Positions 14,300-39,800 of a stretch of DNA of 45,014 nt are shown here, one piece after another. The stretch covers positions 1 to 45,014 of the forward strand of contig WFTS01000017.1 in the NCBI GenBank assembly GCA_015485385.1, read 5' to 3'. The first letter of the stretch is position 1; each line of letters opens with the position of its first letter. The notes below the pieces were generated by a model, which saw only the letters and a list, made by a program, of their open reading frames with translations, searched no databases and was not told the DNA's origin. Position numbers and translations under genes: made by a program. This DNA comes from Kordiimonadales bacterium (GTDB taxonomy: Bacteria > Pseudomonadota > Alphaproteobacteria > Sphingomonadales > Kordiimonadaceae).

Positions 14300-15948
14300 T
14301 GGCGGTAAGAAAATTTATCGAACGTGCCAATCGGGCAGACCTGAAGAAGATGGCGTTGTTAACCGTTGTCGCGGGTTTTTCAAACGCCTTACTGATTGTT
14401 GTTATTAATCAGGTGGCTATTTTGGTTGCCGAGGCTAAACGCCCAAGCTGGCTTGAAACGTCCGCCTTTCTCGTTGCGTTTATTTTATACTATGTGTGCA
14501 ACAAACGCGCCTTATTGAGGGCCAACAGTATTATTGAGGGCCTTCTTAAAGACTTGCGTATCGAAATTGTAGATAAGCTGAGAAAATCTGAACTTAGGAC
14601 TGTCAATGATATAGGGCGCGGCAAATTATATTCGTTGCTTGCTTATGAAACCAATCATCTTTCCGTTGCATTTCCCTTGCTGGTGGAAAGCTTTCAGCAG
14701 GCAGTTTTGTTAGCTGTTGCCCTTATTTATTTGGCATATCTGTCTTGGGCTGCGCTGCTTATTTTTCTTTTTGCAATTTTGACTGGGATCTTAGTTTATT
14801 GGTCTATCAATCAAAGCTATAGCGATGTGATGCAAAAGGTAACAGATCAGCAAGCCCGGATGCTTGATTTGTTTGGTGATATCTTGCACGGCAGCAAAGA
14901 ATTGCGTTTGAACAGCAAGCGACGCGAAGATATTTCGAAAACCTTTGCTGAAGAATCCCGAAATACAGAAGAGCTTTTAACCAGTGCAGGCGAGCAATGG
15001 ACTATGCTGGTGCTGCTAAGTGCTTTTGTGATGTATTTGATGCTGGGGATTGTTGCTTTTATCTTCCCCCATTATGTTGATGATCACGGGGCTATTATTT
15101 TCCAACTTATTCCTACCTTGCTATTTTGCTTGGCCCCATTATCCAAAATCGTTGCACAGTCCCCTATGTTTTTGAGGGCAAATGTTGGCCTGCAGGGAAT
15201 TTTTTCTTTGGAAAATCAGTTGGCCGCTGCGGGTCAAGTTTCGCCCGCTCTGGCGCGTAAAAAAGGCGAAAAGTTTCAAGATTTTCAGACAATTTCCTAC
15301 AGCGATATAGTTTATAATTACCGAGATGCAGGCGGGGATATTTCTTTCACGTCTGGTCCATGGGACTTAACACTCAATCGTGGGGAATTGATTTTTTTGG
15401 TCGGGGGTAACGGTAGCGGAAAATCAACGGTTTTGCGTTTGATTTCTGGACTTTATCAGCGCGATGCTGGGCAGACAGCCGTTGATGGCCGTGTTGTTCC
15501 TGAGCATGATATCGTGGGTGTCCGTGAACTCTTTACGGCATTATTTAGTGATTTCCATTTGTTCGACCGGTTTTACGGACTGGAAACAGTCAACCAACAG
15601 GAGGTTGATCACTATATTGAAATGATGGAGATGACAGATAAAGTTAAATTTGTTGATGGTGGTTTTAGCCAATTGCAGATGTCTACCGGCCAACGGAAAC
15701 GCTTGGCGCTGATTGTTGCATTACTGGAAGACCGCCCCATTTACCTTTTCGATGAATGGTCCGCCGAACAAGATGTGCATTTTAGGGAAATTTTCTATAC
15801 CCGTATTCTGGCGGACTTGAAAGCCAAGGGAAAAACCGTGGTTGTGGTGACACATGATGAACGGTTTTGGCATTTGGCGGATCGGGTGATTAAGTTTGAC
15901 ATGGGCCAAATAGAATGGGAACGGCCAGGTGCGCAAACGCGCCAGTAA
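14299..15948 (+). CDS. PvdE/SyrD-type ABC half-transporter B
   Basis: Second half-transporter, clearly paralogous to the one before it along the whole length. N-terminal membrane domain (first helix about residues 19-38), then an ATPase with Walker A GGNGSGKST, signature MSTGQRKRL, Walker B IYLFDEWSAEQD and H-loop VVTHDE. The ATG lies inside the stop of gene A (TAATG), indicating translational coupling and equal dosage, as expected for a heterodimeric exporter. The likely cargo is the product of the PKS or an acylated or otherwise masked precursor. Its 3' end overlaps the acyltransferase gene by 20 bp, so the operon continues into the starter-unit genes. Confidence 0.92.
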   Translation: MAVRKFIERANRADLKKMALLTVVAGFSNALLIVVINQVAILVAEAKRPSWLETSAFLVAFILYYVCNKRALLRANSIIEGLLKDLRIEIVDKLRKSELRTVNDIGRGKLYSLLAYETNHLSVAFPLLVESFQQAVLLAVALIYLAYLSWAALLIFLFAILTGILVYWSINQSYSDVMQKVTDQQARMLDLFGDILHGSKELRLNSKRREDISKTFAEESRNTEELLTSAGEQWTMLVLLSAFVMYLMLGIVAFIFPHYVDDHGAIIFQLIPTLLFCLAPLSKIVAQSPMFLRANVGLQGIFSLENQLAAAGQVSPALARKKGEKFQDFQTISYSDIVYNYRDAGGDISFTSGPWDLTLNRGELIFLVGGNGSGKSTVLRLISGLYQRDAGQTAVDGRVVPEHDIVGVRELFTALFSDFHLFDRFYGLETVNQQEVDHYIEMMEMTDKVKFVDGGFSQLQMSTGQRKRLALIVALLEDRPIYLFDEWSAEQDVHFREIFYTRILADLKAKGKTVVVVTHDERFWHLADRVIKFDMGQIEWERPGAQTRQ

Positions 15949-17002
15949 CCTTGAAACATGTACCCTAGATCAACTCGGGAGCGTCAGCACAGTGATAAGC
16001 GCACATCAAAGCTTTCAGAGATCGGTTGAGGGGCGAAAAACATGCCTTCTTTTTTCCGGTCAGGGCTCTCAGTGTCGTCAAATGGGCCGCGAGCTATATG
16101 AAGCTGTCCCTTCTTTTCGCAATTCAATGATTTCGTTAGATCAGGTTTTCCAGCAAGAGACAGGGCGGTCCCTATTGCCTGAATTATATGGGGACAATTG
16201 GCGTAAAAGTGATCCATTTGACCAAACTGAAATTACCCACCCAGCTATTTTTATGCTCCAGCTTTCTTTGGCGCGGGCTGTTATCGCTGAGGGGTTACAG
16301 ATAGATGCTGTCTTGGGCAGTAGTTTGGGGGAATATGTTGCGGCGGCTGTCTCTGGTGCTGTTGACGGTAGCGCTATGATGCGGGTTGTTGTTCGCTCGG
16401 CGCAGGCGATTGAGCGATACTGTGACCGGGGGGCGATGATGTCTGTTTTGGCCTCTCAAGCCATTTTTCACGGCGACCCATATGTGCAGAGCAAAGTGAC
16501 ATTTGCGGGCAATTATATGGCCGATCTTTTTGTTGTTGCGGGGGGAATTGAGGCGATTGAAGATGTAAAAAAATATTGGGCTGCTCGGGATGTTCTGGCG
16601 ATTATATTGCCAGTGTCACATGCGTTTCACAGCAGCGCTATGGAGGCTTGCGTTGACGAGTTAGAGGCAATTTTTATGAGCTTGGAGATAAAAAATCCAA
16701 GTGTGCCTTTTTATTCCTCTGCGTTGGGGAAGCAAGTTGAAACATTGGATGCACATCATTTTTTGCGTATTGGCCGGGGGCCTGTTTATTTTTCAGATGC
16801 TCTGTCTGCTCTTGTAAAGACACTAAAGGGCCCGGATTTTGTTGATTTGGGGCCTTCAGGATCTTTAGCTGGAATTGTGCGAAAATCACTGGCTGATACA
16901 GCAGGCTGTAAATGCTATGGGATCCTTTCGCCATTTGGAAATTCTTATCAAATTCTTCAACAGGTGATTGTTGAGAAAGGCACTCATGTATTTTCTGGAT
17001 AA
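15929..17002 (+). CDS. Free-standing acyltransferase (trans-AT or acyl hydrolase)
   Basis: An FabD-fold acyltransferase that loads malonyl units from CoA onto ACPs in trans; the PKS in this cluster has no AT domain. Landmarks: LFSGQGSQ, nucleophile motif GSSLGEY (Ser132; the usual His before it is Ser), Arg in VVVRSAQAI (binds the malonyl carboxylate) and catalytic His in SHAFHSS. The Arg argues for a malonyl transferase; some trans-AT clusters also carry a sister acyl hydrolase that clears stalled chains, and that cannot be excluded. GTG 15929 overlaps the upstream ABC gene. Being followed by an ACP and an amidotransferase suggests it charges that ACP for the malonamyl starter. Note the second AT in the AT-ER fusion. 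Confidence 0.88.
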   Translation: MRKRASNLETCTLDQLGSVSTVISAHQSFQRSVEGRKTCLLFSGQGSQCRQMGRELYEAVPSFRNSMISLDQVFQQETGRSLLPELYGDNWRKSDPFDQTEITHPAIFMLQLSLARAVIAEGLQIDAVLGSSLGEYVAAAVSGAVDGSAMMRVVVRSAQAIERYCDRGAMMSVLASQAIFHGDPYVQSKVTFAGNYMADLFVVAGGIEAIEDVKKYWAARDVLAIILPVSHAFHSSAMEACVDELEAIFMSLEIKNPSVPFYSSALGKQVETLDAHHFLRIGRGPVYFSDALSALVKTLKGPDFVDLGPSGSLAGIVRKSLADTAGCKCYGILSPFGNSYQILQQVIVEKGTHVFSG

Positions 17003-17124
17003 TGGGTTTTGATTTTAAGGGAAAATATGTAAAAATCGGCCCCGATGTTGGTTGATTGTTTTCTGCAATTGTGATGAACGCCTATCTTCTATAAGTTTTT
17101 GAAATAAAGGTGTAATTTAGATTT

Positions 17125-17391
17125 ATGGATAAAATCCGTACATTTATTGAAGAGCAATTTTTAATCGAGTTTGATGATACGCTTCCTGAATATAGTAATT
17201 TATTTTTGGAAGGTGTGTTGGACTCGTTTGGGTATGTGCAATTGTGCCGTTTTCTGGAAAAAGAATATAATATTTCTTTCACAGAAAAGGAAATGACATC
17301 AAATATCTTGATTAGCCTTACCCAAATTCAGCAAGAGGTTGCCCGTAAACTGAGCGAAAAATCTACCTCCCAAACACCGTTGGTTCCTTAA
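17125..17391 (+). CDS. Free-standing acyl carrier protein (starter unit)
   Basis: An 88-residue ACP-fold protein. The phosphopantetheine attachment site is Ser34 in FLEGVLDSFGYVQL. Helix II region and the terminal helix are intact, so it should be a working carrier. A candidate ribosome-binding site (AAAGGTG) lies about 12 nt before the ATG. Only three bases separate its stop from the amidotransferase ATG, which argues that the two act together: the ACP carries malonate while the amidotransferase converts its free carboxylate into an amide. Discrete ACP/amidotransferase pairs of this kind are established in glutarimide polyketide pathways. Confidence 0.9.
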   Translation: MDKIRTFIEEQFLIEFDDTLPEYSNLFLEGVLDSFGYVQLCRFLEKEYNISFTEKEMTSNILISLTQIQQEVARKLSEKSTSQTPLVP

Positions 17392-17394
17392 GAA

Positions 17395-19377
17395 ATGTGT
17401 GGCATAGCAGGCCTGATTAACCCTGAATTTTCGGTTGAGGAATTCCCAAAACTTATAACCGGATTGTTATCAGCCATTGCCCACCGTGGGCCTGATGGCG
17501 CTGGTTATGTGATGGCTGATAATTTTGTTATGGGATCTGTTCGGCTTGCCATTCTGGATCCAGAAGCGGGAATTCAACCCATTTCCGATGACAGCGAACG
17601 GTATTGGCTTTGTTATAATGGGGAGATTTATAATTATCTTGAGTTACGCTCGGAACTGGAAACCTTGGGGCGCACTTTTAAAACAAAATGCGATACAGAA
17701 GTCGTTTTGCAGGCTTGGTTGCAGTGGGGTGAGGGCTGTCTAAACCGTTTTAACGGTGCCTTCGGCTTTGCTCTTTATGACCGAAAGACAAAACAGTTAA
17801 TTCTTGCGCGTGACCGGTTTGGTAAGCGCCCCTTGTTTTATGTTCAGCAAGGCAAGGCCATTTATTTCGCTTCCGAAATGAAAGCCTTTTTGGCAATCCC
17901 GGGTTTTGCCTTTGAACAAGATCCATCGCAGTTGCGCTCTATTCTTGGACAATGGACACCGCTGCCTGACCAGACTGGATTTAAGGGCATTTCAAGCCTG
18001 CCGATGGGGGAATGGTTATCTTTCCAGGACGGACAAGCAGAGCGTCACATATATTCTCGTCTTAGTTTTAAGTCCGACATTCCAATACAAAATGAAGCTG
18101 ACGCGTTAGATAAAATCCGTAGCACTTTGTCTGATAGTGTGGCGCTACGTTTGCGTAGTGATGTGGAAGTCGGTGTATATTTAAGCGGCGGCATAGATTC
18201 AGCGATAGTTGCCCATCTTGCAAAATCCCATGCAGAGCAGTCGATAGCAACATTTTCGGTTACTTTTGAAGATGCACAATTTGACGAATCTGCCGAACAG
18301 AAACTTGTTGCACAAAGAATAGGAAGCCGCCATCTGGCGCGGCATATTCGCCATAGTGATATTGCGCAGGCTTGTCCCGATGCCGTTTATCATGCCGAAA
18401 TTCCAGCTTTTCGTAGCGCATTTGTTCCGATGTATCTGCTTTCTAAACTTACCTCTGAAGAGGGGGTGAAGGTTATCCTAAGCGGCGAAGGGGCTGATGA
18501 AGCCTTCTTGGGTTATGATCTGTTCAAAGAGACCCTTCTGCGACAAGAATGGGACATGTTGCCCGATGATGTGCGCAGGGAGCGGCTGAAGCGCTTTTAT
18601 CCGCATCTCTCGCATTATGGAGATCAGGATACGGCGGCGTTAACTGGGCTGTATCAGCAGTTTTCTACAGAACATATGCCGGGACTGTTTTCGCATGAAC
18701 TGCGGTTTCAGAATGGTCGATTTTCATCCCGCCTTATAAATGTGGACGGTGAGCAGAATCCCTTTGCCAGTCTTTCTGGCTTGATTTCTAAGAATAGCGA
18801 CTTTGATAAAATGAGCTCCGTACAGAAGGCTCAGTGGTTGGAATATAAAACATTATTGTCCGGGTATCTTCTATCCACGCAAGGTGAGCGCATGAGCCTA
18901 GCGCACGGCGTTGAAAATCGTTGCCCGTTTCTTGATCCTGCCGTTGTGAATATAGCAGCTGCGACCAACTTAAAATTTGATGATGGGTTTAGAGAGAAAC
19001 GATTGTTGCGAGAAGCTTTTAGAGGCGACCTCCCTGCGGCCGTTGTTGACAAACGGAAGTTTCCATACCGTGCGCCGGATACCGAAGCCTTTGTAGCTGA
19101 ACGCCCTGACTATCTTGAACTGTTATTATCAGATACTGAACTGGAAAAGTTGCCATTTTTAAACAAGAAGTTTGCACGGCTTTTGATCAATAAAATGTTC
19201 ACAACATCGCCAGATAGGATTTCCACCAAGGAAAACCAAACATTCATGTTCTTATTAAATATTGCTTTGCTGAACTACCAGTTTGTTACGCGTAAGGGGT
19301 TAGGCTCTGGGACCTCTCTGGGGACATTACCACCCTTGCAGCGCGTGGTAGACTTGCGCACATGTAGCGCCTCTTAG
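17395..19377 (+). CDS. Asparagine-synthase-type amidotransferase (malonamyl-ACP formation proposed)
   Basis: Glutamine-dependent amidotransferase of the AsnB family, 660 residues. The N-terminal class II glutaminase begins MCGIAGL; after Met removal Cys2 is the Ntn nucleophile, followed by AHRGPDGAGY and YNGEIYNYLELR. The C-terminal synthetase domain has the PP-loop YLSGGIDSAIV for ATP binding and GEGADEAFLGYD. Both halves look complete, so ammonia from glutamine can amidate a carboxylate activated as acyl-AMP. Amino-acid asparagine synthesis is possible, but the context (AT and ACP immediately upstream, glutarimide-like PKS) supports amidation of malonyl-ACP. Its stop overlaps the convergent ECH gene stop by four bases. 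Confidence 0.9.
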   Translation: MCGIAGLINPEFSVEEFPKLITGLLSAIAHRGPDGAGYVMADNFVMGSVRLAILDPEAGIQPISDDSERYWLCYNGEIYNYLELRSELETLGRTFKTKCDTEVVLQAWLQWGEGCLNRFNGAFGFALYDRKTKQLILARDRFGKRPLFYVQQGKAIYFASEMKAFLAIPGFAFEQDPSQLRSILGQWTPLPDQTGFKGISSLPMGEWLSFQDGQAERHIYSRLSFKSDIPIQNEADALDKIRSTLSDSVALRLRSDVEVGVYLSGGIDSAIVAHLAKSHAEQSIATFSVTFEDAQFDESAEQKLVAQRIGSRHLARHIRHSDIAQACPDAVYHAEIPAFRSAFVPMYLLSKLTSEEGVKVILSGEGADEAFLGYDLFKETLLRQEWDMLPDDVRRERLKRFYPHLSHYGDQDTAALTGLYQQFSTEHMPGLFSHELRFQNGRFSSRLINVDGEQNPFASLSGLISKNSDFDKMSSVQKAQWLEYKTLLSGYLLSTQGERMSLAHGVENRCPFLDPAVVNIAAATNLKFDDGFREKRLLREAFRGDLPAAVVDKRKFPYRAPDTEAFVAERPDYLELLLSDTELEKLPFLNKKFARLLINKMFTTSPDRISTKENQTFMFLLNIALLNYQFVTRKGLGSGTSLGTLPPLQRVVDLRTCSAS

Positions 19378-20207
19378 GCTTCCCACGGGAATTTAAGTTC
19401 GGTTACATACCGCTTAATATTTTCTTGAATGGATGGGTCATTAAACATTTTACGGTTCGCCTCAAGCGCCTCAGGCTTCCAAGAATTTAAGATACCCATT
19501 CCCTTTGCCATATAGGCCTTATAGCTGGCAATCGTCGCTTTATCTAAGTATTTAAGGCGGCTTAGGTGTTGGCGCAGTGTAATATCTACCTGATCAGAGG
19601 CCGCATCAACCAGGCCCCAGTTGCTAGCCTCCTGTGTGCCAATAGGTCGGGTCATGAGCGTAAGATAATGCGCTTTCTGAAAGCCGATGCGGCGTACTAG
19701 GAACGGCATAACACAGGCCGGAAATAATCCAAATAACAGCTCTGACAAGCCAAATGTAGCTGTCTCACTTGCTAGCACAATGTCAGACGCAGCAATAAAC
19801 CCAACCCCGCCAGCGTTTGCACGCCCTTCTACGACACTGATTGTCAGGAAAGGCCCGGTCGCTAAACGGTACCAAATATCATATAAAAATTCAGGATCAT
19901 CGGCTGCCGCAGCCCCTGTTACCGCTGACCCTGTTACCGCTGACCCTGTTACCGCAGCCCCTGTTGTCGCAGCCTTTGCGGTTGCCTTGAAATCACCGCC
20001 CGCGCAAAACACATCTTTGCTGCCTTTTAATATCACCATAGTGATGGCAGAGCTTTCATCTTCGCAAGTTTGTATCAGTTTATCAAAGTCCCGGACCATT
20101 TGGGCATTGATGGTATTGTCAGCTTCAGGCCGGTCAAAACTCACACGGCAAATGCTGTTTGTAACCTCTACGTTCAAAGTCTCAAAACGGGTGCTATCTT
20201 TATGCAT
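19374..20207 (-). CDS. Enoyl-CoA hydratase-like ECH1 of a beta-branching cassette
   Basis: Crotonase-fold enzyme proposed to dehydrate the HMG-ACP intermediate made by the HMGS-like protein. Oxyanion-hole block VFCAGGDF (residues 66-73) and EGRANAGGVGFIAASDIVLA, then LSELLFGLFPACVMPFLVRR, a stretch I associate with the PksH-like ECH1 group rather than the ECH2 decarboxylase. Residues 81-100 are an Ala/Thr/Gly/Val low-complexity insert (VTGSA repeats) just after the oxyanion loop, unusual for the family. It is the last gene of a minus-strand operon with KS, ACP, HMGS, P450 and dioxygenase. ATG at 20207 touches the KS stop. Confidence 0.86.
   Translation of the reverse strand: MHKDSTRFETLNVEVTNSICRVSFDRPEADNTINAQMVRDFDKLIQTCEDESSAITMVILKGSKDVFCAGGDFKATAKAATTGAAVTGSAVTGSAVTGAAAADDPEFLYDIWYRLATGPFLTISVVEGRANAGGVGFIAASDIVLASETATFGLSELLFGLFPACVMPFLVRRIGFQKAHYLTLMTRPIGTQEASNWGLVDAASDQVDITLRQHLSRLKYLDKATIASYKAYMAKGMGILNSWKPEALEANRKMFNDPSIQENIKRYVTELKFPWEA
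19915..19974. repeat. 15-bp in-frame tandem repeat in the ECH1 gene
   Basis: Four 15-bp units: two identical CCTGTTACCGCTGAC (19915, 19930) and two variants (19945, 19960). They encode the VTGSA-type insert in the crotonase domain. Confidence 0.9.
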
Positions 20208-21451
20208 TATGCGAGGTCCTCGCTTGAAGGGGCTTTAAGCACGAGGGCTGTATTGATGCCTCCAAATCCGAATGAAAATTTAAGCGCATTCTGAATTTTA
20301 TGAGGCTGCGGCGCTGAACCTACCCATTTTAGGGTAGGGTCCAGAGCGGGGTCTATATTGTTGCAGGGGTGCAGTTGGCCTTCGCGCATTTGTAAAAATA
20401 CGGCCGCCAACTCGATTGCCCCAGCAGAGCTAAGTCCGTGGCCTAAAATTGATTTTGTTGTATTGATCCAAGCCTTATTCAAGCCTAATTCTTTGTAGGT
20501 TTCCAGTTCAGTTTTATCCCCTAACGGAGTGCCGGTTGCGTGGCCGTTAACATAATCAATATCGCCTGCTTGCAGCCCTGCTTGCTGTAGTGCCGTATGT
20601 GCCACTTTTTGCTGGGCTTCTGAATTTGGTTCCGGCCCACGGTTGCCGTCAACACTCTGCGCCCCCCCCGCTAGAATACCGTAGTGTTGGCGCTTTGTGT
20701 CCAAGCGCTCAATTACTAAAGCTGCACAGGCTTCCCCGTAGATAAACCCATCATGATCTTGTGACATGGGGCGGCTGGCTTTGCGAGGTGCAGCGCTATA
20801 GCGTTCAGAACCCATTGCGCCCATTGCGCGCATGCTCTGAAGGTCAAACAGGGACAAATCTTGAAGCGCACCTAAGGCAATGCAGACATCAACTTGCCCA
20901 CAGCGTACCGCTTGCATGGCCTGTAATGTTGCCACAAGCCCGCTGGCCGAGGCCGCGCCAACGGTTCTGCAAAATCCGCGAATGGGAAAAGCCGAAGTGC
21001 ATATGGCACCCACGTCTGTATCGAGAAAAACATGTCCATATCTTGGTGGAATAAAGGCGGGCCGTTCTGAATAGGAGGTGGCCGCTATGGCTTGCTCGCG
21101 AGAGTTTAAACCGGCCCCTCCGACAATTAGACCAATGCGCTTGGGGTCAATGCCGTCTAAATTGGCTTCATGCCAAGCTTCATCTAGTACCGATACTGCC
21201 ACCCGGCCGGAAAGTCCCACAGTGCGGTCTATACGCTGAGGTAATATTGTTGGGGGGGCTTCGGGTAATTCTATGCCAATGAAAGGTGCCTCTGATGCCC
21301 CAGATTGGCGACCGGGCCTTTCTAGATAAGAAAACAAATTCCGTGAACCAAAAAGGGCCCCTTTTAGGGCGGCTTTGCCAAACCCTGCCCCGCAAGCCGC
21401 ACCAATACCTGTAACTGCAAGGGGGGGGTTATTGTTGTGCTGATTTGGCAT
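20207..21451 (-). CDS. Decarboxylating ketosynthase of the beta-branching cassette (Ser for Cys)
   Basis: A FabF-like ketosynthase fold in which the active-site Cys is replaced: the block RTVGAASASG aligns Ser (176 counting from the longer start at 21475) with the catalytic Cys, while both His motifs (NGHATGTPLGD and SILGHGLSS) remain. This is the pattern of the HMGS-cassette KS that decarboxylates malonyl on the donor ACP to give acetyl-ACP, not one that condenses. The frame is open from 21475, but ATG at 21451 gives the usual N-terminus MPNQHNNNPPLAVTGIG and a shorter overlap (23 bp) with the ACP gene, so it is preferred. Translationally coupled to the ACP gene before it and the ECH gene after it. 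Confidence 0.9.
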   Translation of the reverse strand: MPNQHNNNPPLAVTGIGAACGAGFGKAALKGALFGSRNLFSYLERPGRQSGASEAPFIGIELPEAPPTILPQRIDRTVGLSGRVAVSVLDEAWHEANLDGIDPKRIGLIVGGAGLNSREQAIAATSYSERPAFIPPRYGHVFLDTDVGAICTSAFPIRGFCRTVGAASASGLVATLQAMQAVRCGQVDVCIALGALQDLSLFDLQSMRAMGAMGSERYSAAPRKASRPMSQDHDGFIYGEACAALVIERLDTKRQHYGILAGGAQSVDGNRGPEPNSEAQQKVAHTALQQAGLQAGDIDYVNGHATGTPLGDKTELETYKELGLNKAWINTTKSILGHGLSSAGAIELAAVFLQMREGQLHPCNNIDPALDPTLKWVGSAPQPHKIQNALKFSFGFGGINTALVLKAPSSEDLA

Positions 21452-21677
21452 GAATAAGGTCGGCCAATTCGCCAAGGTTGCTGGGGCCGTGTAATTGCGT
21501 CATTGGAATTTCCAAATTGATAGCCTCAAGGGTGGCAATTAGAATTTCCCCACGTTCCATAGAGTTTACACCCAAGTCAGCCATTGCATCATTGCGTGCA
21601 ATTGGATGGTCAGCCAACTCTGGAATGGTTAGTCGAATTTCATTGATAAGCACTTGAAAAATTTTATTGCTGCCCAA
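21429..21677 (-). CDS. Donor acyl carrier protein of the beta-branching cassette
   Basis: A discrete ACP with the attachment Ser in ADLGVNSMERGEIL; the NSMERGE pattern resembles donor ACPs of HMGS cassettes. It would present acetyl, made by decarboxylation, to the HMGS-like enzyme. The frame is open to TTG 21704, but TTG 21677 is preceded by a good ribosome-binding site (AAGGGGGATGG), giving an N-terminus LGSNKIFQVLINEIR that fits helix I. It follows the HMGS gene closely and overlaps the KS gene, so the trio is made together. Confidence 0.88.
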   Translation of the reverse strand: MGSNKIFQVLINEIRLTIPELADHPIARNDAMADLGVNSMERGEILIATLEAINLEIPMTQLHGPSNLGELADLIHAKSAQQ

Positions 21678-21716
21678 CGGCCCATCCCCCTTAGAAAACC
21701 ACAAGAAAAGCTAAAC

Positions 21717-22973
21717 CTAGACCCAGCGATACGTTCGATGATAGCTATCAATACTGTCTAAGACAAGCCAGTTGTTATCACCATTTTCAGGCACGAGATC
21801 TTCGATGATCGTATGGTCAAGCTGGGCGTCACGGGTGCCAAAACGAAGGGTATGATTACCCTTTAACAGCATCTCATACTGATCGATAGAAAGTTTGTGG
21901 CGTGCCTGAAGGTTTTGGGAAATATTCATGGCTTTCAGTGCTTTTTGCCCTTGCGGTGTAATAATACCGCTGAAGAATTCCGAGCAACAGCCAGAGCCAT
22001 AAGAAAACATACCAAGACGTACTGGTTCACTAAGCTCTACCGTATCCAACGTGCCAGCCAAAGCCACAAAAACAGAACCGCCAGCCGTATTTCCCAGATG
22101 TTTGCCATAAGCAAGGCTGGGCGTGAGGCGGCGTTCAAAGTCAGTATCAATGGCTGAAGTATCGGCCTTATAAAGCTTGCGCATTAAATGACGGTGCGCC
22201 CCTTTGACCATGCCGCCAAAGGGTGTGTGGAAACATAAATATCCAAAACTTTCGCGGAAATCAGCCCCGTCAACCCGGCGTGCGTAATCTTGGTAAGCCC
22301 CGTTGCAGCAATCCAAGTATGCCATCAGGGATAGATCCGCGTCCCCGGCTTCTGTGTCAGGACCGGGCCTGCATGTGTCCATAACCTCAAAAGCGTGGTT
22401 GCCGTAGGCACCCGGATCAATACTGAAAATATGAGGTGTATCTGAGACAAGCATAGCAACAGCGCCTGCGCCAGATGTGGGTTCCGAATAAGCCCATTCT
22501 TGAACGGCGTTGATATCATCAAGGGCAAAGCGTGAAATATCAGTTGTAATCACCAAAGCCTTGGCGCCCGGCGATGTGCCTGATAGCAAAAAGTTTACAG
22601 CCATTTGCAAGCCAGCGGCCCCAGAATAGCAGGCCTGCTTTATTTCAAACAGGCGGCAATTTGATGGTAGTTTAAGAAGGTCATGCACATAGGTGCTAAT
22701 GGATTTACCAAAATCAATGCCGGATTCAGTGCAACAGATCACCATTTCGATCCGAGATTTCTCGTCCTTGGACATCTGGTCAATCAAGGGCTTGGCAGCA
22801 TTTACTGCAAAACTTACTGGGTCTTCATAGGGAAGGGCGACAGTTTTTTCATCCATCAACAGGTTTTCAAAACGGGCAATTTCCAGTTCCCGGTGCTTGC
22901 AAAGTGCATGCACGTCCAAGCTGGCGCGACCTCCGTATAGGTTCATCGCTTCAATACCAATAAAATTGCTCAT
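21717..22973 (-). CDS. HMG-CoA-synthase-like beta-branching enzyme (HMGS)
   Basis: PksG-type HMG-CoA synthase homologue that adds an acetyl-ACP carbon nucleophile to the beta-keto group of an ACP-bound polyketide, installing a beta-alkyl or exomethylene branch. Catalytic Cys115 lies in EIKQACYSGAAGLQ, the general-base Glu83 in CCTESGIDFGK, and the His region in YLCFHTPFGGMVKGAH. The 418-residue length is standard for the family. The ATG overlaps the stop of the P450 gene by four bases (ATGA), showing operon coupling. The target is probably an ACP with the flag Trp; such an ACP ends the visible PKS (44977-44995). Confidence 0.95.
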   Translation of the reverse strand: MSNFIGIEAMNLYGGRASLDVHALCKHRELEIARFENLLMDEKTVALPYEDPVSFAVNAAKPLIDQMSKDEKSRIEMVICCTESGIDFGKSISTYVHDLLKLPSNCRLFEIKQACYSGAAGLQMAVNFLLSGTSPGAKALVITTDISRFALDDINAVQEWAYSEPTSGAGAVAMLVSDTPHIFSIDPGAYGNHAFEVMDTCRPGPDTEAGDADLSLMAYLDCCNGAYQDYARRVDGADFRESFGYLCFHTPFGGMVKGAHRHLMRKLYKADTSAIDTDFERRLTPSLAYGKHLGNTAGGSVFVALAGTLDTVELSEPVRLGMFSYGSGCCSEFFSGIITPQGQKALKAMNISQNLQARHKLSIDQYEMLLKGNHTLRFGTRDAQLDHTIIEDLVPENGDNNWLVLDSIDSYHRTYRWV

Positions 22974-24238: not shown

Positions 24239-24280
24239 GAACTTTTCCTAATGAGAGGCTTTAAAGGATGATTATACTGC

Positions 24281-25342
24281 TTAATCATCTTTCAAAGGAT
24301 AGGGGTGCCAGTATGTGCCGTCATGCTCGTGTTTAGTCGCTTTGCGGGTTTTATCCCAGCTCCGCGTGCTTTGTAACATCGGCACTTCCACTTGTGTGCG
24401 GCGCAAGGCTCTTTGAACTGTGGGATCAATCAAACCGCGCCTGTGCAGTGTGCCATTACAATTCCAAATCACTAAATCCCCTTCTTGCCATTGATGTGAA
24501 TACAGAAAGGGTTCCCGAATGGTTTGATTGAACAGAGATTTGATTAGGGCATCACTTGCTTCACGGTCAAAACCTACAATCCGGTCCATGTCGTGAAAAT
24601 TCAAGTAGAGGAATTTTTTGCCATTTTTTGGGTTTTCTTTAACCAATGCTTGGCTAACCGGAGGGGTTGGGTCGGGTAGATCAACAAAGTCAATATCTGG
24701 GAAAACCATACAGTGGATCGCCCGCAATTTTTCAAGTTGGGCGCGTGTTTCTTTGTCCATATTCTCAAAGGCAGCAGTTGTATTGGCAAATTGTGTGTGA
24801 CCCTCCCGTTCGGGCACAATCACCGGATAGAGGATGTTAACAACTTCCACATCAACCTTTTCCGTGTCCCCTGTGTGCCAACATGATGTTCCGTGCATCT
24901 TATACTGGTCTTTCATATCCAGAATGACATTGGGATCATGGTCTGTGTCGCATAGGTCTGGCCCGTTTATGAAGAATAGTTGATTACCATTGTTTAAAAT
25001 AGGTAATTGGCCTAGCGCGCCTTCTTTGCCAACTTCAGCATTTGGGTCTGGCATAGGCGCCCAAATATGCTCGCCTTGATCACGCTGCTGGCCCAAGGAG
25101 CGAGTGAAGGCGTTTTGCTGAGCTTCATCCATGTTTTGCGAACGAATAACCAGAACAGCATGGTCTGCCAATAATTCCTGTAATCTAGTGATTAAGGCAG
25201 GACTTGAATCTTTTGCAAGGTCTAACCCTTTGATTTCAAGAACGAAAGTCTCAGATAATGGTGTTAACTGGACATGTTCCATTCCTGACGGCGGCGTGAT
25301 GGTTGATGTTTCGGTTGATGTCAATTTTATGGTACCTCGCAT
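24281..25342 (-). CDS. TauD/TfdA-like Fe(II)/2-oxoglutarate enzyme with HxG-like metal motif
   Basis: A double-stranded beta-helix oxygenase of the TauD/TfdA family, 353 residues. The first metal motif reads CWHTGDTE: His156 is present but the position normally Asp (WHTD) is Gly158, with Asp159 shifted by one. The distal metal ligand His300 (GTLHRRG) and the 2-oxoglutarate-binding Arg (R314, RALRRT) are present. Most members hydroxylate or desaturate; HxG/HxA variants in this superfamily bind chloride and halogenate. Which applies here needs a structure or assay. First residues are a Thr/Ser-rich leader. Gene spacing to the P450 is 42 bp. Probably a tailoring enzyme of the polyketide. Confidence 0.87.
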   Translation of the reverse strand: MRGTIKLTSTETSTITPPSGMEHVQLTPLSETFVLEIKGLDLAKDSSPALITRLQELLADHAVLVIRSQNMDEAQQNAFTRSLGQQRDQGEHIWAPMPDPNAEVGKEGALGQLPILNNGNQLFFINGPDLCDTDHDPNVILDMKDQYKMHGTSCWHTGDTEKVDVEVVNILYPVIVPEREGHTQFANTTAAFENMDKETRAQLEKLRAIHCMVFPDIDFVDLPDPTPPVSQALVKENPKNGKKFLYLNFHDMDRIVGFDREASDALIKSLFNQTIREPFLYSHQWQEGDLVIWNCNGTLHRRGLIDPTVQRALRRTQVEVPMLQSTRSWDKTRKATKHEHDGTYWHPYPLKDD

Positions 25343-25400: not shown

Positions 25401-25416
25401 CAGATAAAGATTGCGG

Positions 25417-26565: not shown

Positions 26566-26653
26566 AAGGGATTTTCAATTATTAGCTGTGAATGCGCCGG
26601 TAACTGCTTAAATTTTATTGAATGATTTGAAACTATGATGCTAGTTGTTTTGC

Positions 26654-28433: not shown

Positions 28434-28474
28434 GCGGTTCGGTTTCGTTGGCGCTGTTATTAGGGGATGCTACA

Positions 28475-30883: not shown

Positions 30884-33800
30884 AAGCAACATCTCAGTTT
30901 GAGCCTGTTGCTATTATTGGCACAGGCATGCGCCTTCCAAAGGCCGAGAGCCTAGATGCGTTTTGGCAACATCTGGAGGCGGTTCAATCATTGATTAAGC
31001 CTCTGCCGCCAGAGCGTTGGGATGTGGATGCCTTTTTAGCTGACATAGACCTTGGTAATGGCGCTAAAGGCGTTTGGGGTGGTTTTCTGGAGGATGCGGA
31101 TTGCTTTGATGCCGCCTTTTTTGGTGTGTCCCCAAAAGAAGCCGCTTTGATGGACCCGCAACAGCGCTTTGCTCTGGAGATGGCTTGGCATGCGATAGAA
31201 GATGCGGGCTTAAAGGCCAGCAGTTTGACGGGCAGTCGCACCGGTGTTTACATGGGGGTGTGCCACTGGGATTATGCCGAATTGCTGGAAAAGCATCTGG
31301 CTCATGTGGACGCCTATATGCCCACAGGCATTGCCTATGCGATCATCGCCAACCGGATTTCACACTTTTTTGATTTCCGTGGTCCCAGCATTACAAATGA
31401 TACGGCCTGCGCCGCGTCCATGACGGCAATTTATGAAGCCGTACGCGCCTTACAGTCTGGCGAGTGTGAAATGGCGTTGGCCGGGGGGGTAAACCTTGCT
31501 TGGTCACACAATCATTTTTCCGCCTTTTCCAAAGCTGGTATGTTGTCCAAGTCGGGGCGCAGCCAATCCTTTGATGCTGGGGCTGACGGTTATGTGCGCG
31601 GTGAAGGCGGGGCCGTCCTGCTGTTGAAACCGCTAGCCAAAGCGGTGGCTGACCAAGATAATGTTCAGGCTGTTATTCGCGGTATCGGGATAAACCACGG
31701 AGGGCGGACAAATTCCCTAACGGTAACGAGCCCGGATGCCCAAGCTGAATTGATCCAATCGGTTTACCGATCAGCAAGCGCAACACCAGAGAGTGTCGAT
31801 TATATCGAAGCCCATGGGCCGGGAACGCCTTTGGGTGATCCAATTGAAATTTCAGGTTTAAAACAAGCTTTTGCAGCTCTTCACGAAGAAGCGGGGACCA
31901 AACCACAGCCCAACACCTGCGGAGTTGGCTCGGTGAAAACCAACATAGGCCACCTTGAAGGGGCAGCAGGTGTTGCGGGCATTGTCAAAGTGTTGGCGGC
32001 CTTACGGCATGAGAAATTCCCCGCTAATGTGGGCTTTGAGACACTGAACAGCTTGATTGATCTGGAGGGCACACCGTTTTGCATACAAAGCAAGACCACA
32101 CCTTGGCTGAAAGGGGGTAGGCCGCGCCGCGCTGGCGTTAGCTCCTTTGGTTTTGGTGGCAGTAATGCTCATGTTTTGTTGGAAGGTTTCGACAATCCTA
32201 CAAGCACGCAACAAGCAAACACGCCTGACGAAACCAGGGGCATAACATCTTTTATAATCCCTTTGTCGGCGCGCAGTGATGATAGGCTAAGGGCATATGC
32301 TACAGCCCTGCTTGAATTTATCGAGCGTGATCACGTGCAACCTCATAGCTTGCCAAATGTGGCCTATACCTATCAGACAGGCCGGGAGGCAATGGCAGTG
32401 CGTACCGCCTTTGTTGTACAAGAGATGGACGAGCTGCGTCAGGCGGTAAGAGATTATCTGCAAAATAGAGAAAACTCCGCCGTAATTTTGCCGGATACGG
32501 CCACCACTGAGGAAACGCCAGCCGCCACAGCGGTACGCTGGGTTAGGGCGGAAGTAGGTGACAGGGATGTTATTGATCAAGGGATAGCTGGTGCTCGCAT
32601 ATCAGTGCCTGTATATCCGTTCTCTCGCGACAAACACTGGATGGATATATTTCAAAACAGCAAGGATGAACGCCCTGTGCCTCATCCCCTTTTGCACCGG
32701 AATGTCTCGACCTTTGAAAGAATTGCGTTTCAAACAATATTGCGCGGTACTGAACCCGTTTGGGCGGATCACCATGTTGGGGGTGATCAGGTGCTTCCGG
32801 GTATGGTTTATCTGGAAATAGTGCGCGCTGCGGTTGGTTTGGTTGAGAGCTTTCCAGAAGGCGAACAGCCTGAAGATGTGCGGCAAAGGGTGTGCTTTGA
32901 AGATATTGTTTGGCTTCGCCCGGTTACCGCAAGTTCAAGCGCAGTTACTCTGAAGACCAGTCTGAAGCGTGCCGATAATGGTTTAATTGCCTTCACGGTT
33001 GAACGCGTCGAAGCTGATGGCAGTGTCACAGTTGTTGTTCAAGGGTCTGTGCATATACAAGGTGCTGAAGTTGGTGCGCGTGCGAAAGTAGATTTGGAGC
33101 ATTTGCAAGAAACGCTTCAAGAAAGCCGGGACGTAAAAGCCTGTTATCAAACACTGCGGGATAGTGGTGTTCACCACGGGGCGGCGTTTCAGGTTCTCAA
33201 AAACATTCAGTGCGACAGTGAGGAAGTGCTGGCGGAATTGGCCTTATCCCGCCGTATGCGTGCCACCTTGGGGGCTCTACCTCTGCACCCCATTATGCTG
33301 GACGGTGCTATTCAGGCTTGGGCTGCTTTGGCGGACACACACTTGGTTGGTGCCGCTGTACCATTTGCCTGCGATAAAGTGGACGTTTATGGGCCCTGCG
33401 AGGCTTCAATGTGGGCTATAGTCCGCCCCACTAAAGATAAGAAAAACACAGAATCTGTCCAGCATTTGGATATTGAACTTTGTGACAAGCATGGGAATGT
33501 CCGTGTGGTTTTTCGTGATTTGATATTAAGGGTGATGACCAACAAACAAACCCTGCCCGTTCGCGACAAAACTCCCGGTCGTGACAAAACTCCCGGTCGT
33601 GACAAAACTGAGGAAGCACACCAGTTGATTTATGTTGCCGGTGTGTGGGAAGAACGCGCACTTGATCGCTCAAGGGCAGTTTCGTTTTCAGGGCAGGCAA
33701 AATTATTCTCTGCACACAAAGGGGCGCCGCTTGCCTCAGAGATGGGGAACTTCAAGCCTTGGGCATTTCACCAATTGCCGGATACCGGCGGGTGTGAGGA

Positions 33801-36800
33801 CGCTGTCGCTGCTGAGCTATGGTTTACTTTCCTGCATCAGCAAATTAGCGGCTGGTTGGCTAAACGGTCCTCTGAGGACTGTAAATTCCTGATCCTTGTG
33901 CCGCAGCATATACCCCCGATGCTGACAGAGCCATTGTCTGCCTTGCTGAAAACAGCGGTTTTGGAAAACCCGAAAATCAGCGGTAGTATTATCCAAACTA
34001 GCGAAGATATCCCAGATGAAAATCATCTGAAAATTATTGAGGCTGAGCTGTGTAGCAGCAGCCGTTTTTCGTGTGTGCGGTATGACCGTGATTTGATCCG
34101 CAGTGTGTGGAGGCCGCGTGCCGTTCCTGTACCTGATACTGTTGCAAGCGCAACGGACGTATCTGTTGATGCAAATGGCGTTTACTGGATCACCGGCGGC
34201 GTTGGTGGCTTGGGGGCGCATTTTACAAACTGGCTAATCGCTTGTGGGGCAAAAAACATCGTCCTTAGTGGGCGACGCGCAAAGCTGGATGCTGCGGCCT
34301 TAGCCATGATTAAACAGCTGCAAGCAAATGACGTGTCCGTCCAGTATAAAGCGTGTGAAATAGCGGATGCGACATCTGTTGAAGGGTGTGTGGCCTGGAT
34401 CGCCGAGCAGATAGGCCCCCTAAAAGGGATTATTCATGCAGCCGGAGTTCTGGAGGATGGTTTTATTTTCAACCAACCTCAGTCAGCGATCGCCAACGTG
34501 TTCGCCCCCAAGGTCGCTGGGCTGTATAATCTGGATGCTGCCACCTGTGATATAGACCTTGATTTTTTGGTTTTGTGTTCATCTGTGGCGGCGACGTTCG
34601 GCAATGCGGGTCAGGCGGTTTATGCCGGGGCCAATGCTTATATGGATGCGTTCGCTCAGCACCGCAGAGATATGGTGCAGAAAGGCGAGCGTAGAGGGCA
34701 TACAGTTGCTATAGGCTGGCCGCTCTGGGGTGAGGGCGGCATGAAAGTGGATGCACCCACGCAAGAGGCAATGACGCTGCGATGGGGGACTGTTCCCATG
34801 ACAACAGACGCAGGCTTGCAGGCATTATCGAACATTATCACTATGCCGACGGCCCTTAATTACACGGTTTTATATGGCTATGATGATCGCATAACAGGGT
34901 TTTTAGAAAGCTTTGGCTTACAGGATAAAACCAGCTCAAGCATTGCTGAAAGCGTCAGTGTTTCAGATAAAATAGTTGCAGGTGGTAGCCCTGAACCTGA
35001 CAAGCAAGCTTTGCTTAAAGGCACCGTACAGTATTTGCGCGATGTGTTTGCTGATGTGTTGGAGTTTGAACCAGACCAGATACGGCCTAACCGCAAACTG
35101 GACGAATATGGACTAGAATCGATTTCTATTGTTGAAGCAACCAACCAGCTAGAGAAAACGTTAGGCCCTTTATCTAAAACTCTTTTGTTTGAATATGTGG
35201 ACATCAACGGTATTGCCGGACATTTGCTGGAAACCCACCAGAGTGCGCTGGAGAAAATGTTGGCCAGCAAGCATACGACTTCACCTGAGCCTTCTGCATT
35301 AACCGCGAGCAGCCAAACGGCTGCGCATGAACAGCCGGTTGCGCATAAAAAAGAAATTGATCCAGAAACCGATCTAAAATCCGGGCGAACCCTAGCCTCT
35401 GGTCAAGACGGAGCAGCGAATTCTTCAAATAAATCCTCTAGCCACGATGTTGCGGTTATAGGCCTTTCTCTGCGTGTCGCTAAAGCCGAAGACCAAGACG
35501 CTTTTTGGGATATGCTGGCAGAAGGAATTGACGGGTTCGAACCATGGCCGCAGTCCCGTTGGGATCACGGGGCTATTTTGCACCCTGAACGGGATGTCCT
35601 TGGTAAAACGGTCGTTAAAACAGGCGTGTTCCTAGACGATATCGATAAATTCGATCCGCGTTATTTCCGTATATCGCAAGCCGAAGCAGAACTGATGTCA
35701 CCTGAGGTCAGATTGTTTTTGGAGGCCAGTGTAAACGCCTTTGAAGATGCTGGATATTCCCGCGAATATATGGATCGCCGCTATGATGGGGATGTTGCGG
35801 TCATTATGGGGTCTATGACCAACGAATACCATCTGTATGGGTTCCAAAACATGCTGGTGCGTGGGTCAAAAGCAAGCGGGAGCTACACCGGCACGATCCC
35901 TAATATGGTCTCTTATTATTACGGATTTAAAGGCCCCTCTTATTTTCTTGATACCATGTGTTCGGCGTCTTCTACCTGTGTGCATGAAGCGGTGCATATG
36001 CTGCGAGCAGGGCGCTGTAAAATGGCCTTGGCAGGGGGCGTTAGCCTATTGCTGCACCCCCAGAAACTTATCGCCACGTCTCAAGAGCATTTCACCACAA
36101 AAACCGCCGATGTTATCCGGGGCTACGGTGTTGGAGCAGACGGCACGATACTGGGGGAAGGCGTTGGCGCGCTGGTTTTGAAAACACTTGAGGATGCAGA
36201 ACGCGACGGAGATCATATTTACGGCGTTATTAAAGGCAGCGGGGTCAGTAATGCGGGGACACGCAACGGCTTTACGGTGCCGAACCCTAACCAGCAGGCC
36301 GTGGCTATCCAACATGCTCTGGATGACGCCGATATTGATGCTTCCACAATAGGCTATATTGAAGGGCACGGCTCTGGTACGGCCTTGGGTGATCCTATCG
36401 AGGTGAAGGCCTTAACACAGATATTTGCGGGCGAAGGTGTTGAAAATCAAACCTGCCCTATTGGCACGGTAAAAAGTAATGTGGCTCATTTGTTGGCTGC
36501 TTCCGGGTTAGCTGGTATTGCAAAAGTATTGATGCAGATGAAGCACCGCGAACTCGCCCCTTCCTTACATGCTGAAAAGTTAAACCCCGATATAGCTTTT
36601 GATAAAACGCCATTTTACGTGCAGCAGAAACGCGAAGTTTGGAGACGAAAACGCGATAAAGCTGGGCAGGAATTACCTCTCAGGGCCGGGGTAACATCAA
36701 TTGGTGCGGGCGGCATGAATTCTCATATTATATTTGAGGAATACCGTGATGCACGGGTTCGCACTCATCCGCCTGTTCTGGGGCCTGAATTGTTGGTTTT

Positions 36801-39800
36801 CTCGGCGATGAACCAACGTTCTCTGCAAGCTGTAACGGATCGCTTTTGCCAGTATTTGGAACAAGCCTCCGATACGGCTTTGGGTGACATTGCCTATAGT
36901 TTGCAAGTTGGTAAGAATGAGCTGCCCTGTAGGCTTGCAGTTGTCGCGCGTGATTTTTCTGATTTGAAAACTCAATTGGAACGCTTTTCCGCAGCGCCTC
37001 AATCTGCGGGGCATTGGCATTATATCCCTTCTGTATTTTCTCAAGACGCGCCTGAGGACACAGAAGCATTAACCGCCGCGCTTCAAAGACGCGCTCTTGA
37101 TGTTGTTGGCAAGGCTTGGACCGAAGGGGCAGTGATTGATTGGGAAGCCCTTAACCTAGATAGGGATATGCGCCGTGTATCCTTACCGGCTTATCCGTTT
37201 GAGCGTGTCAAATGCTGGTACAAAGATGCGCCGGACGCGCCTTCTGTAATTAATCCGCTTGGGTCGAAACTAAAATTACATCCGTTTGTTGGCAGCAACC
37301 AATCTGATCTGGGGGGCTTAATTTATACGACACCAATGTATTTAGAGGAGATGCAGGATTATCTTTTCACACAGGACCGTCAGCAATTTTTAAACCCGGT
37401 TTGCGCGGCAGAGGTTGTTATGGCGTTGGCCCGTATCGCAGGGTTGTCCGGTGATTTGATCTTAAAAGACCTTTCCGTGCAAAGTGATATAAAGTGGACT
37501 GACGTTCTAAGCGTGACCAGCAGGGTTACTCAAATTGCGAATGCAGAAGTTCAAATTCATGTGGACTGCTTAAGTGAGGAGGGCGCAAGACCTTGGGCTA
37601 TCGGAGCTGTAGAATCCGGGCTCTCAGTTGCCGGAACAATGGCCCCTTATTTTGACATTGATGCCTTTTTTGACATTGATGCCTTGCGTGACACCGCGAT
37701 TGAACATGTTGATCACGCAGTATTCTATAAGACTTTGGGCGATCAAGGATTTGGATTTGGCCCTTTCCTCGAGGTGGTGGAACGCGCTTACCGACTGGCA
37801 GATGGGCGTTTGCTTTGCAGTTTGCGCGCAGATGCTCCGCAACAGGATGGGTTCAAACGTAATTTACAACTTTCCGCCCCGGCATTAGCTGCGGCGCACC
37901 AATTGTTAGAAATGGCTGACAGTGGTTGGTCCAAGGCTGAGCACTGGCATTTGAAGCACGCGTATTTCACCAGTGGTGATGTGAGACATGTGTGCCTAGA
38001 CCATAAAGCGCCAGATGGCTTTCAGTTGATTTTCTTGGATGCTGCAGCCAGGGCTGTTTGTCATTGGCAAGGAATAGCACGAGACAGCGTTGAGCTGCCG
38101 CTTGCGGCGCAAAGTCAAAACCCGATCAGTGAAAATCAGCCCAGTCAGCACCAAATTAGCCAAAGCTCTGTCCCAGATAATGTAAAAACAAACAGTCTGA
38201 TCGTTCAAACATTATGTCAGCTCGCAGGGGATATTTTAAAGTTCCCCGCAGATGATATTGGTGTGCGCGACCCTTTTCATGATCTGGGTTTCGATTCTAT
38301 TACCTTAACCAGATATGCCCATGACCTGAGCAATCGGCTTTCTGTTGAGATTTCTCCAGCCCTGTTTTTTGAATGCGAACATATAGAGGCGTTAAGCCAA
38401 TATTTGATCGAGCATCACGGAGCCGTATTAGCATCTACCGAGCCTGTTACGCCGTCTGCTTCATCTGTTCAGAATAAGCCTCAAAGAACCTTGGCAGCCA
38501 GAGGCCCGGCCTCCCGCACTGTAACGTCAAGCCCTGCGGATGATGCCATCGCCATTATAGGTATGGCGGGGCGCTTCCCCGGAAGTGAGAATATTGAGAA
38601 ATTCTTTGATCATCTGTTAGCGGGAGACAGCTTAATTGGTGATCTCCCATTAGAGCGATATCACGGCGAGTATTTATCCGGTTTGCAGCAAGCCAATTTT
38701 GTTAAACGGGGTGGCTTTCTGGAGGATGTTGATCAATTTGATGCGGCCTTTTTCAAAATATCACCAGTAGAAGCAGAGCGTATGGACCCGCAGCAACGTT
38801 TGTTGCTTCAGACGGTGTATCACGCGCTGGATCATGCGGGGTACGCACCCGCAGACCTACCGGAACATACAGGTGTGTTTGTCGGGGTTAGTGCGCTAGA
38901 TTACGCCGAGTTGTTGCGCCAAAATGGTCTTGGCGCTGATGGGTATGCAGCAACTGGTAACTCACTGGCTATGGTGGCAAACCGGGTGTCGCACGCTTTA
39001 AATTTACACGGCCCCAGCCATGCGGTGGATACGGCCTGCTCTAGTTCGCTGATTGCCTTACAACAAGCCGCCCAAGCCATCCAAAGCGGGCGCTGTGATA
39101 CGGCTTTGGTTGGCGGGGTAAACCTTTGCCTTTCCCGAGAAGGATTTGAAGCGCCGCTGGATGCGGGCATGTTAAGCCCTACAGGATACTGTAAAAGCTT
39201 TGGCCGTGATGCGGATGGCTATGTTCGGGGCGAAGGGGTGGCTACGTTGGTTGTCAAGCGTCTTGGTGATGCCAAGCGTGACGGCGATAATATTTTGGGT
39301 GTGCTTATAAGCGGTGCTGAAAACCACGGCGGCCATGCCGGGTCATTGACAGCTCCAAACGTGAAAGCACAGGCCGCTCTGGTACAGCAGGCAATGGCGG
39401 ATATTGATCCGCGTTCTATTTCTTACATAGAAGCGCACGGAACAGGCACCCAGCTTGGTGATGCTGTTGAGGTTAACGGGTTAAAGCAGGCCTATGCGGC
39501 CCTGATGCAAGGCCAGTCCGTGGATGCTCCTTTCATTGGGTTGGGATCGGTTAAATCTAATATTGGTCACTTAGAAGCTGCTGCTGGTTTGGCGGGGGTG
39601 ATAAAGGTGTTGATGGCGATGCAACAGCAGGCGTTGCCGCAAACCCTGCACTGTAAGGATGTTAGCCCGCATGCTAGCTTGGAGGGATCTCCCTTTTATC
39701 TGTTGCAAGACCAAGCACATTGGCCGCACTCGGTTGATAGCAGTGGGGCTCGACTGCCTAGACGAGCCGCAGTTAGCAGCTTTGGATTTGGCGGCGCGAA

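Follow-up and report, generated by a model that had tools for sequence, protein, structure and literature searches.

A sesbanimide-type glutarimide gene cluster in a Kordiimonadales bacterium with a predicted SecA-type halogenase

Which compound is encoded by the polyketide synthase (PKS) locus on contig WFTS01000017.1 of a Kordiimonadales bacterium, and how does it relate to known glutarimide pathways? The stretch analysed here, referred to as the window, comprises positions 1-45014 of that contig (C17; 45,014 nt), part of a genome of 2.97 Mb in 167 contigs. A preliminary description had read it as a glutarimide pathway with sesbanimide as the alphaproteobacterial precedent and a tailoring set that might make a different congener. 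We found that, judged by domain order and ketosynthase (KS) phylogeny, the assembly line is sesbanimide-type, and thus of a known kind, and that it is combined with a new variant of the tailoring genes. In this variant the FkbM methyltransferase is not matched, and a TauD-family Fe/2-oxoglutarate protein and a protein of the choloylglycine-hydrolase family (CBAH) are present. The best product prediction from these genes is an O-desmethyl, ring-chlorinated sesbanimide congener. We put the probability that the product is a chlorinated sesbanimide-type congener, with the TauD-family protein acting on the finished molecule as a SecA-type halogenase, at roughly 0.55.

The loci for comparison came from a module-2 scan of GTDB species genomes, which gave 50 loci, that of Roseibium aggregatum PHM038 included, and whole-genome searches covered the 16 genomes behind the best of these. 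Within the genus of the window, module 2 was matched in 3 of 19 genomes at a cut-off of 1e-150, namely the window genome itself (G000, 93% complete), the complete, one-contig genome G023 and G024 (76% complete). The sesbanimide R pathway of Magnetospirillum gryphiswaldense, as described in PMC8262917, served as a map for the assembly-line steps. Among the sbn clusters of PHM038, Stappia indica PHM037 and M. gryphiswaldense, the PHM038 sequence was compared and M. sulfuroxidans stood in for Magnetospirillum. The secimide cluster (sec) was compared through the cluster of Pseudomonas sp. KUIN-1.

PKS1 starts at 30874 on the forward strand and runs off the contig at 45012. As had been proposed, it opens with KS, dehydratase (DH), ketoreductase (KR) and acyl carrier protein (ACP) domains, followed by KS, a dead DH-like domain (B) and ACP. 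Module 1 (30898..35238, Pfam and domain profiles) keeps the DH motif HxxxGxxxxP (HHVGGDQVLP). This motif is missing from the second DH-like domain (37255-38100), for which the PDB gave, at E ≤ 1, just two RhiE chains, matched over their B-domain region. Module 2 (35443..38406), predicted to form the glutarimide, aligned through KS, linker and part of B with RhiE, the branching module of rhizoxin, at 606 bits; the sole higher-scoring row was a chain with two KS domains that aligns to KS1 and whose scores are summed. RhiE reportedly forms a delta-lactone branch, whereas an imide is expected here. In a tree of 240 KSs (quick method, SH-aLRT support only; restricted to KSs that scored above 100 bits over 340 or more profile positions, some loci being represented by only part of their KSs), KS1 grouped with other first KSs of glutarimide-type lines. 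KS2 stood apart from ordinary extension KSs, in a clade with a support of 100 whose 19 members are all second KSs of such lines, and a B domain lies behind 18 of the 19, the Hyphomicrobium KS being without one. The neighbour of this clade is a single KS of a SAR324 metagenome-assembled genome (MAG; L066 KS2), joined by long branches that the tree tool flagged as doubtful, as it did other such joins. In the Hyphomicrobium MAG itself (L087-L088, G014 C3, PKS1 from 404184), the KS2-clade KS is followed by a gap of 303 residues (1883-2185) before the next KS, compared with 513-620 where a next KS is present elsewhere.

Upstream of PKS1, one operon on the forward strand carries the three proteins that the preliminary description had placed there, a free acyltransferase (AT; 15929..17002), a free ACP with Ser34 (17125..17391) and a two-domain amidotransferase (17395..19377). 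The best Pfam E-values were ≤1e-19 for the AT, the amidotransferase and the KS, DH, KR and ACP families of the PKS protein. The amidotransferase combines a class II glutaminase domain with N-terminal Cys and an Asn-synthase domain, and its homologues in glutarimide-type loci are 48-90% identical. It formed a clade with seven other glutarimide-type loci (Streptomyces, Pseudomonas and sesbanimide-type; support 100/99), outside of which fell four Asn-synthase-family proteins of the compared genomes, two of them long-branched. This tree had 12 rows; L097 and the second Asn-synthase protein of the window genome (L130) gave no frame through the filter and were left out. The free ACP, assigned from its sequence (no Pfam hit) and probably the carrier of the malonamyl starter, adjoins the amidotransferase in 9 of 9 loci examined; in M. 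sulfuroxidans the two are still paired ∼58 kb from the PKS start. Malonyl-ACP as the amidotransferase substrate is supported, though not proved, by this evidence. Together with the grouping of KS1 and KS2 and the B domain, the clade and the pairing argue for the glutarimide reading.

The free AT belongs to Pfam Acyl_transf_1 with GSSLGE instead of GHSxGE. It is present as described, but differs in type from the malonyl-AT found in the Streptomyces AT-ACP-amidotransferase trio. It is 32% identical to an AT-like protein of PHM038, 32% identical to the first AT of the AT-AT-enoyl reductase (ER) protein of KUIN-1, and 26-28% identical to the ATs of AT-ER proteins. Against the trio AT it reached 26% in one Streptomyces locus and was unmatched in the other. 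In these two loci the AT beside ACP and amidotransferase is of the type that is fused here to an ER, in a protein (28448..30883, forward strand; trans-AT and PfaD-type ER by Pfam and NCBIfam) that is likely to be the malonyl-AT of the line and whose AT is ∼40% like theirs. A Streptomyces-type malonyl-AT was thus not found in the operon of the window, whose AT is of another type, and this likeness weakens the free AT as the malonamyl-forming partner. In PHM038, M. sulfuroxidans and Hyphomicrobium the ACP-amidotransferase pair likewise stands without a neighbouring AT, so a trio-type malonyl-AT is not defining for proteobacterial members. SbnA is described as an acylhydrolase (PMC8262917), and the free AT may be one like it if its PHM038 relative is, as we infer, SbnA. 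Two linear Streptomyces plasmids of ∼1.6 Mb (L096, L097), unannotated in the collection, carry glutarimide-type PKS loci with AT, ACP and amidotransferase.

The cluster is larger than the window, starting near 11641 and running on into contig C63. The window ends inside module 4, and the end of C17 overlaps exactly, over 151 bases, with the start of C63, where PKS1 continues (C63:3-7568). This join is not an assembly artefact, because single contigs show the same order: G024 has PKS1 and the monooxygenase together, and G023 has the entire gene order. Within the window, module 3 is KS-KR-ACP (38545..41463) and module 4 is KS, an ACP-like insert, methyltransferase (MT) and ACP (41605..45012), both on the forward strand and by Pfam and domain profiles, in keeping with the hydroxyl and methyl predicted for them. 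Across the join follow a KS, two enoyl-CoA hydratase (ECH) and two ACP domains, and then a KS with a DH-like end that was assigned by position and length, Pfam reporting no DH there. C63 also carries a 433-residue FMO-like (Baeyer-Villiger-type) monooxygenase and a second PKS of 6772 residues, with KS-DH-KR, KS, KS-DH-ACP, KS-KR-ACP, KS and C-A-PCP-TE, plus further ACPs; its last KS is without the first active-site His. For C, A, TE, B and the DH-like domain at the PKS1 end, seeds were excised by eye from proteins of the window itself; Pfam later confirmed C, A, PCP and TE, and RhiE confirmed B, with no such confirmation for the DH-like domain.

Domain order and all 11 KS positions are the same as in the cluster of PHM038, and in the KS tree each of the 11 window KSs paired with the same-position KS of other sesbanimide-type lines, which agrees with sesbanimide as the precedent. 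PHM038, as Labrenzia aggregata, yields sesbanimides according to a review (PMC11759743). In the sesbanimide R map the glutarimide comes from modules 1 and 2, the C5 hydroxyl from module 3, the C8 methyl from module 4 and the exomethylene from module 5, the ester oxygen is introduced by the monooxygenase, and the dienoyl chain and L-arginine come from SbnQ (PMC8262917). The window and C63 share with the sbn clusters the module types and the PKS1, flavin monooxygenase, PKS2 layout (SbnO, SbnP, SbnQ, with a split module 6), the beta-branching cassette with an ECH-ACP-ACP module 5, the P450, amidotransferase and ACP, trans-AT-ER, exporter and a terminal nonribosomal peptide synthetase (NRPS) module. 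At the nine positions read, the A-domain pocket of this C-A-PCP-TE end equals that of PHM038, with one change relative to M. sulfuroxidans, and the domain is predicted to be Arg-type, as in the sbn clusters. The pocket positions follow GrsA numbering, and the specificity is judged solely by comparing these residues with those of PHM038. Gladiofungin/gladiostatin reportedly also has the KS-DH-KR-ACP, KS-B-ACP start and an amidotransferase, and the two Streptomyces loci (cycloheximide and iso-migrastatin types) share the ACP, the amidotransferase and a module-2 match; both groups differ from the window in chain and termination, and the Streptomyces loci also in having an operon AT of the malonyl-AT type.

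Two observations concern the architecture of these lines in other genomes. The second PKS of G023 (L074-L075) has no KS before the NRPS module, a KS kept in the window, PHM038, M. sulfuroxidans and Hyphomicrobium; given its absence in G023, it seems dispensable. In Hyphomicrobium the flavin monooxygenase match falls inside the PKS1 open frame and is not a separate gene.

The beta-branching cassette lies on the reverse strand and comprises a trans ECH (19374..20207; Pfam ECH_1, with homologues in PHM038, Hyphomicrobium, G023 and G024), a KS taken from its context to be decarboxylating (20207..21475; Pfam, and found in the compared clusters), a donor ACP (21429..21704; DLGVNSME, homologues in five compared clusters), whose start codon is not fixed and which overlaps the start of the KS frame, and an HMG-CoA-synthase (HMGS)-like enzyme (21717..22973; Pfam HMG_CoA_synt, 66-93% identical in five compared clusters). 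Module 4 had been predicted to add both a methyl and a beta-branch. Its MT domain and a Trp flag in ACP4 (DSILGADW) agree with this, but the ECH-ECH-ACP-ACP set is in module 5 on C63 and not in module 4, which weakens module 4 as the main beta-branch site. The Trp stands six residues after the phosphopantetheine Ser of ACP4 in all three genus clusters, whereas this position holds Leu in 9, Phe in 4 and Trp in none of the 13 other clusters with a visible ACP4; L027, L028 and one L031 frame have no visible ACP4, and the other L031 frame does show an ACP of this type, again without the Trp. The spacing (Ser +6), presumably that of the Haines motif, recurs in the module 5 ACPs. The Trp flag is presented as a strong predictor of beta-branching and argued not to be its determinant in PMC10006238. 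From the flag, a second beta-branch at C7 via module 4 is possible. In the post-KS linker of module 4, an ACP-like segment (∼43036-43263) has LGMEPRHW in place of the Ser motif; this Ser-less insert is found in the three genus clusters, and the same motif pattern gave none in 13 others, an absence as judged with that one pattern.

The differences from the sbn clusters are concentrated in the tailoring genes, and here the idea of a different congener was borne out. The TauD (24281..25342) and CBAH (25417..26469) genes, both on the reverse strand, lie between the P450 and the PKS in the same place in all three genus clusters, with 70-87% and 53-84% identity, respectively, in the other two. Neither is found in the fetched cluster stretches of PHM038, M. 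sulfuroxidans or Hyphomicrobium. In the TauD-family protein (Pfam, PDB matches, alignment and tree), HTG replaces the HxD motif, and the distal His and the 2-oxoglutarate-binding Arg are kept. HxD was present in 28 of 28 TauD comparators (two of the 30 TauD loci, L126 and L127, gave no profile hit), and HTG is invariant across four members, those of the three genus clusters and the KUIN-1 homologue. In a 31-row tree with 27 comparators, L101 being left out for its much longer frame, the window protein shared a clade with this Pseudomonas glutarimide-cluster homologue (support 100/100). Among the 16 whole genomes a close TauD match was found only in KUIN-1; G001, G009 and further places of G015 gave weak ones (E 2e-17 or weaker), and there was no plasmid match at 1e-25. 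A structure model from four sequences had a predicted local distance difference test (pLDDT) score of 48.6 and was not used.

SecA of P. syringae, which carries an HxG motif, is a proven halogenase that chlorinates the secimide glutarimide ring, at the ring carbon next to an imide carbonyl (PMC12171316). Seen through KUIN-1, the sec cluster (PMC7930024, PMC12171316) has the same glutarimide start modules, ACP-amidotransferase pair and adjoining TauD-family HxG protein; it differs in a shorter assembly line, and the 60 kb examined yielded neither an HMGS-cassette nor a P450 match. The genus proteins place a second lineage beside SecA, from another glutarimide pathway; this suggests that what SecA-type enzymes recognise is the glutarimide ring and not the remaining chain.

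The P450 gene (22970..24238, reverse strand; Pfam p450) is SbnE-like, with 53-62% identity in G023, PHM038, M. sulfuroxidans and Hyphomicrobium and a homologue in two pieces in G024 (75-93%), and would act at C6. In the sesbanimide map, the FkbM methyltransferase SbnD is the proposed C6-O-methyltransferase that accounts for the C6 methoxy (PMC8262917). FkbM was unmatched in G000, G023 and G024. Of 11 further cluster-bearing genomes searched, 10 gave a match and Stappia sp. BW2 did not. This search omitted 5 of the 16 genomes (G009, G011, G012, G014, G015); separately, G014 gave a 58% match and none was seen in 60 kb of G015. Because FkbM is not matched, we speak of a sesbanimide-type variant and not of the sesbanimide cluster. 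A methyltransferase at C63:29465-30184 was rejected as a replacement, being matched in 18 of 19 genus genomes, 15 of them without a cluster match. In PHM038 the FkbM homologue lies off the main cluster (L095, contig C48, 95000-107000), beside three tandem P450 stretches that are 43-51% like the P450 of the window.

The CBAH protein, an Ntn hydrolase by Pfam, has a signal-peptide-like N-terminus followed by a conserved Cys in the three genomes, and its PDB matches are to choloylglycine hydrolases. In the 16 whole genomes it was otherwise matched in G014 (39%, not on the amidotransferase contig) and weakly in G009 (32%). Enzymes of this family cleave N-acylated amino acids. As sesbanimide R carries an N-acylated arginine (PMC8262917), one may speculate that a secreted CBAH removes the C-terminal arginine outside the cell. 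As a general cause of arginine-free sesbanimides it was rejected: PHM038, which makes such forms according to the same source, has no CBAH match at E ≤ 1e-3, and the protein is therefore not required in general.

How the TauD-family protein is read decides the product. Its closest solved folds are TfdA/AAD/TauD oxygenases, and no halogenase is named among the PDB matches listed, which does not exclude kinship with one. The protein could thus be a hydroxylase or desaturase with an AspH-like two-His site, set in an oxidative tailoring gene set, on the same sesbanimide-type line, giving an O-desmethyl, extra-oxidised and chlorine-free product. AspH provides the precedent, since the human enzyme hydroxylates with two His ligands only, so that HxG does not always mean a halogenase (PMC13168262). 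We nevertheless consider this rather unlikely, as SecA has the same motif, works in a glutarimide pathway and chlorinates, and as HTG does not vary in the four members. Chlorination by a SecA-type halogenase is a well-founded prediction from motif and clade, and several points weigh against it besides AspH. Identity between the window protein and the Pseudomonas homologue is no more than 38-40%; the latter, compared in SecA's stead, is taken to be SecA because of its motif and its location within a glutarimide cluster; and an Asp directly follows the motif (HTGD). As for the missing methyl, the FkbM match is also lacking in the cluster-bearing Stappia BW2, and its absence is weaker evidence in the incomplete G000 and G024 than in the complete G023.

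An ordinary sesbanimide cluster, with the TauD and CBAH genes as passengers and a known sesbanimide or its desmethyl form as product, would fit the 11 KSs and the domain order of a known producer. We hold it to be improbable, as both genes are kept in the two other genus clusters at the identities and in the place given above, and as the genus genomes have no FkbM match. A product that is no glutarimide at all, with the amidotransferase acting on free aspartate, takes its support from NCBIfam, where the protein scores 442.9 bits, the cut-off for asparagine synthase being 267.1 bits, and would be named accordingly. Given its clade apart from Asn-synthase-family proteins, its constant ACP partner and the orthology of the KS2-B module, this reading is scarcely credible.

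From the genes, domain order, KS orthology, HxG motif, shared clade with the Pseudomonas homologue and lack of an FkbM match in three genomes, all directly observed, we infer the chemistry, chlorination site and product as follows. Amidotransferase and free ACP would make malonamyl-ACP, which module 1 would extend to an enoyl diketide; module 2 would add malonyl by vinylogous Michael addition and close the glutarimide. A hydroxyl would come from module 3 and a C-methyl from module 4; module 5 would introduce an exomethylene together with the HMGS cassette, and the ester oxygen would be inserted by the flavin monooxygenase at the split module 6. PKS2 would build the fatty dienoyl part, and its terminal NRPS module would add arginine before thioesterase release. 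The P450 would oxygenate C6, and this oxygen would stay unmethylated because no FkbM methyltransferase was found. The SecA-type halogenase would then chlorinate the finished molecule, most likely at the position that SecA uses on secimide, the carbon of the glutarimide ring that adjoins the imide carbonyl. That one product is at once ring-chlorinated, methoxy-free, beta-branched at two neighbouring positions (modules 4 and 5) and trimmed of arginine by CBAH, which would make it a new chemotype, is doubtful. Among the titles and abstract openings listed from the open-licence literature, none mentioned a chlorinated sesbanimide or the present cluster. A chlorinated representative of a compound family with potent cytotoxicity is thus predicted, along with a candidate gene and site. 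Calculated from sesbanimide R with the chain otherwise unaltered, [M+H]+ would be 712.3319 for the O-desmethyl chloro form with Arg and 556.2308 without it, and 678.3709 and 522.2698 for the corresponding forms that have no chlorine; a second beta-branch would alter all four values. With three naturally occurring variants of the cluster in a single genus, one of them in a one-contig genome, tailoring-gene exchange can be compared on a fixed assembly line.

The left edge of the cluster is probably formed by an SPFH/Band 7 gene at 11641 and an exporter pair, both of which also stand beside other clusters. The Band 7 protein (11641..12567, forward strand; Pfam) has homologues beside clusters in G023 (66-71%) and in PHM038, M. 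sulfuroxidans and Hyphomicrobium (34-36%). The two ABC exporter halves follow on the same strand (12710..14299, Pfam ABC_tran; 14299..15948, Pfam), the first matched at 52-86% in five compared clusters, always accompanied by a partner, and the second with homologues in the compared clusters as well. The right edge is placed near C63:29196, because the next gene is matched in 18 of 19 genus genomes, mostly cluster-free. Genes shared with PHM038 are 47-74% identical, except for the free AT (see above) and Band 7 (35%). Between the tailoring genes and the trans-AT-ER gene lie a metallophosphoesterase (26645..27490, forward strand; Pfam, 55-91% in five compared sesbanimide-type clusters) and a 4'-phosphopantetheinyl transferase (27538..28302, reverse strand; Pfam ACPS, 43-81% in five compared clusters). 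Beyond the alphaproteobacterial producers, sesbanimide-type start modules were seen in MAGs labelled beta proteobacterium (L025), Acidobacteriales (L026) and Acidobacteriaceae (L027).

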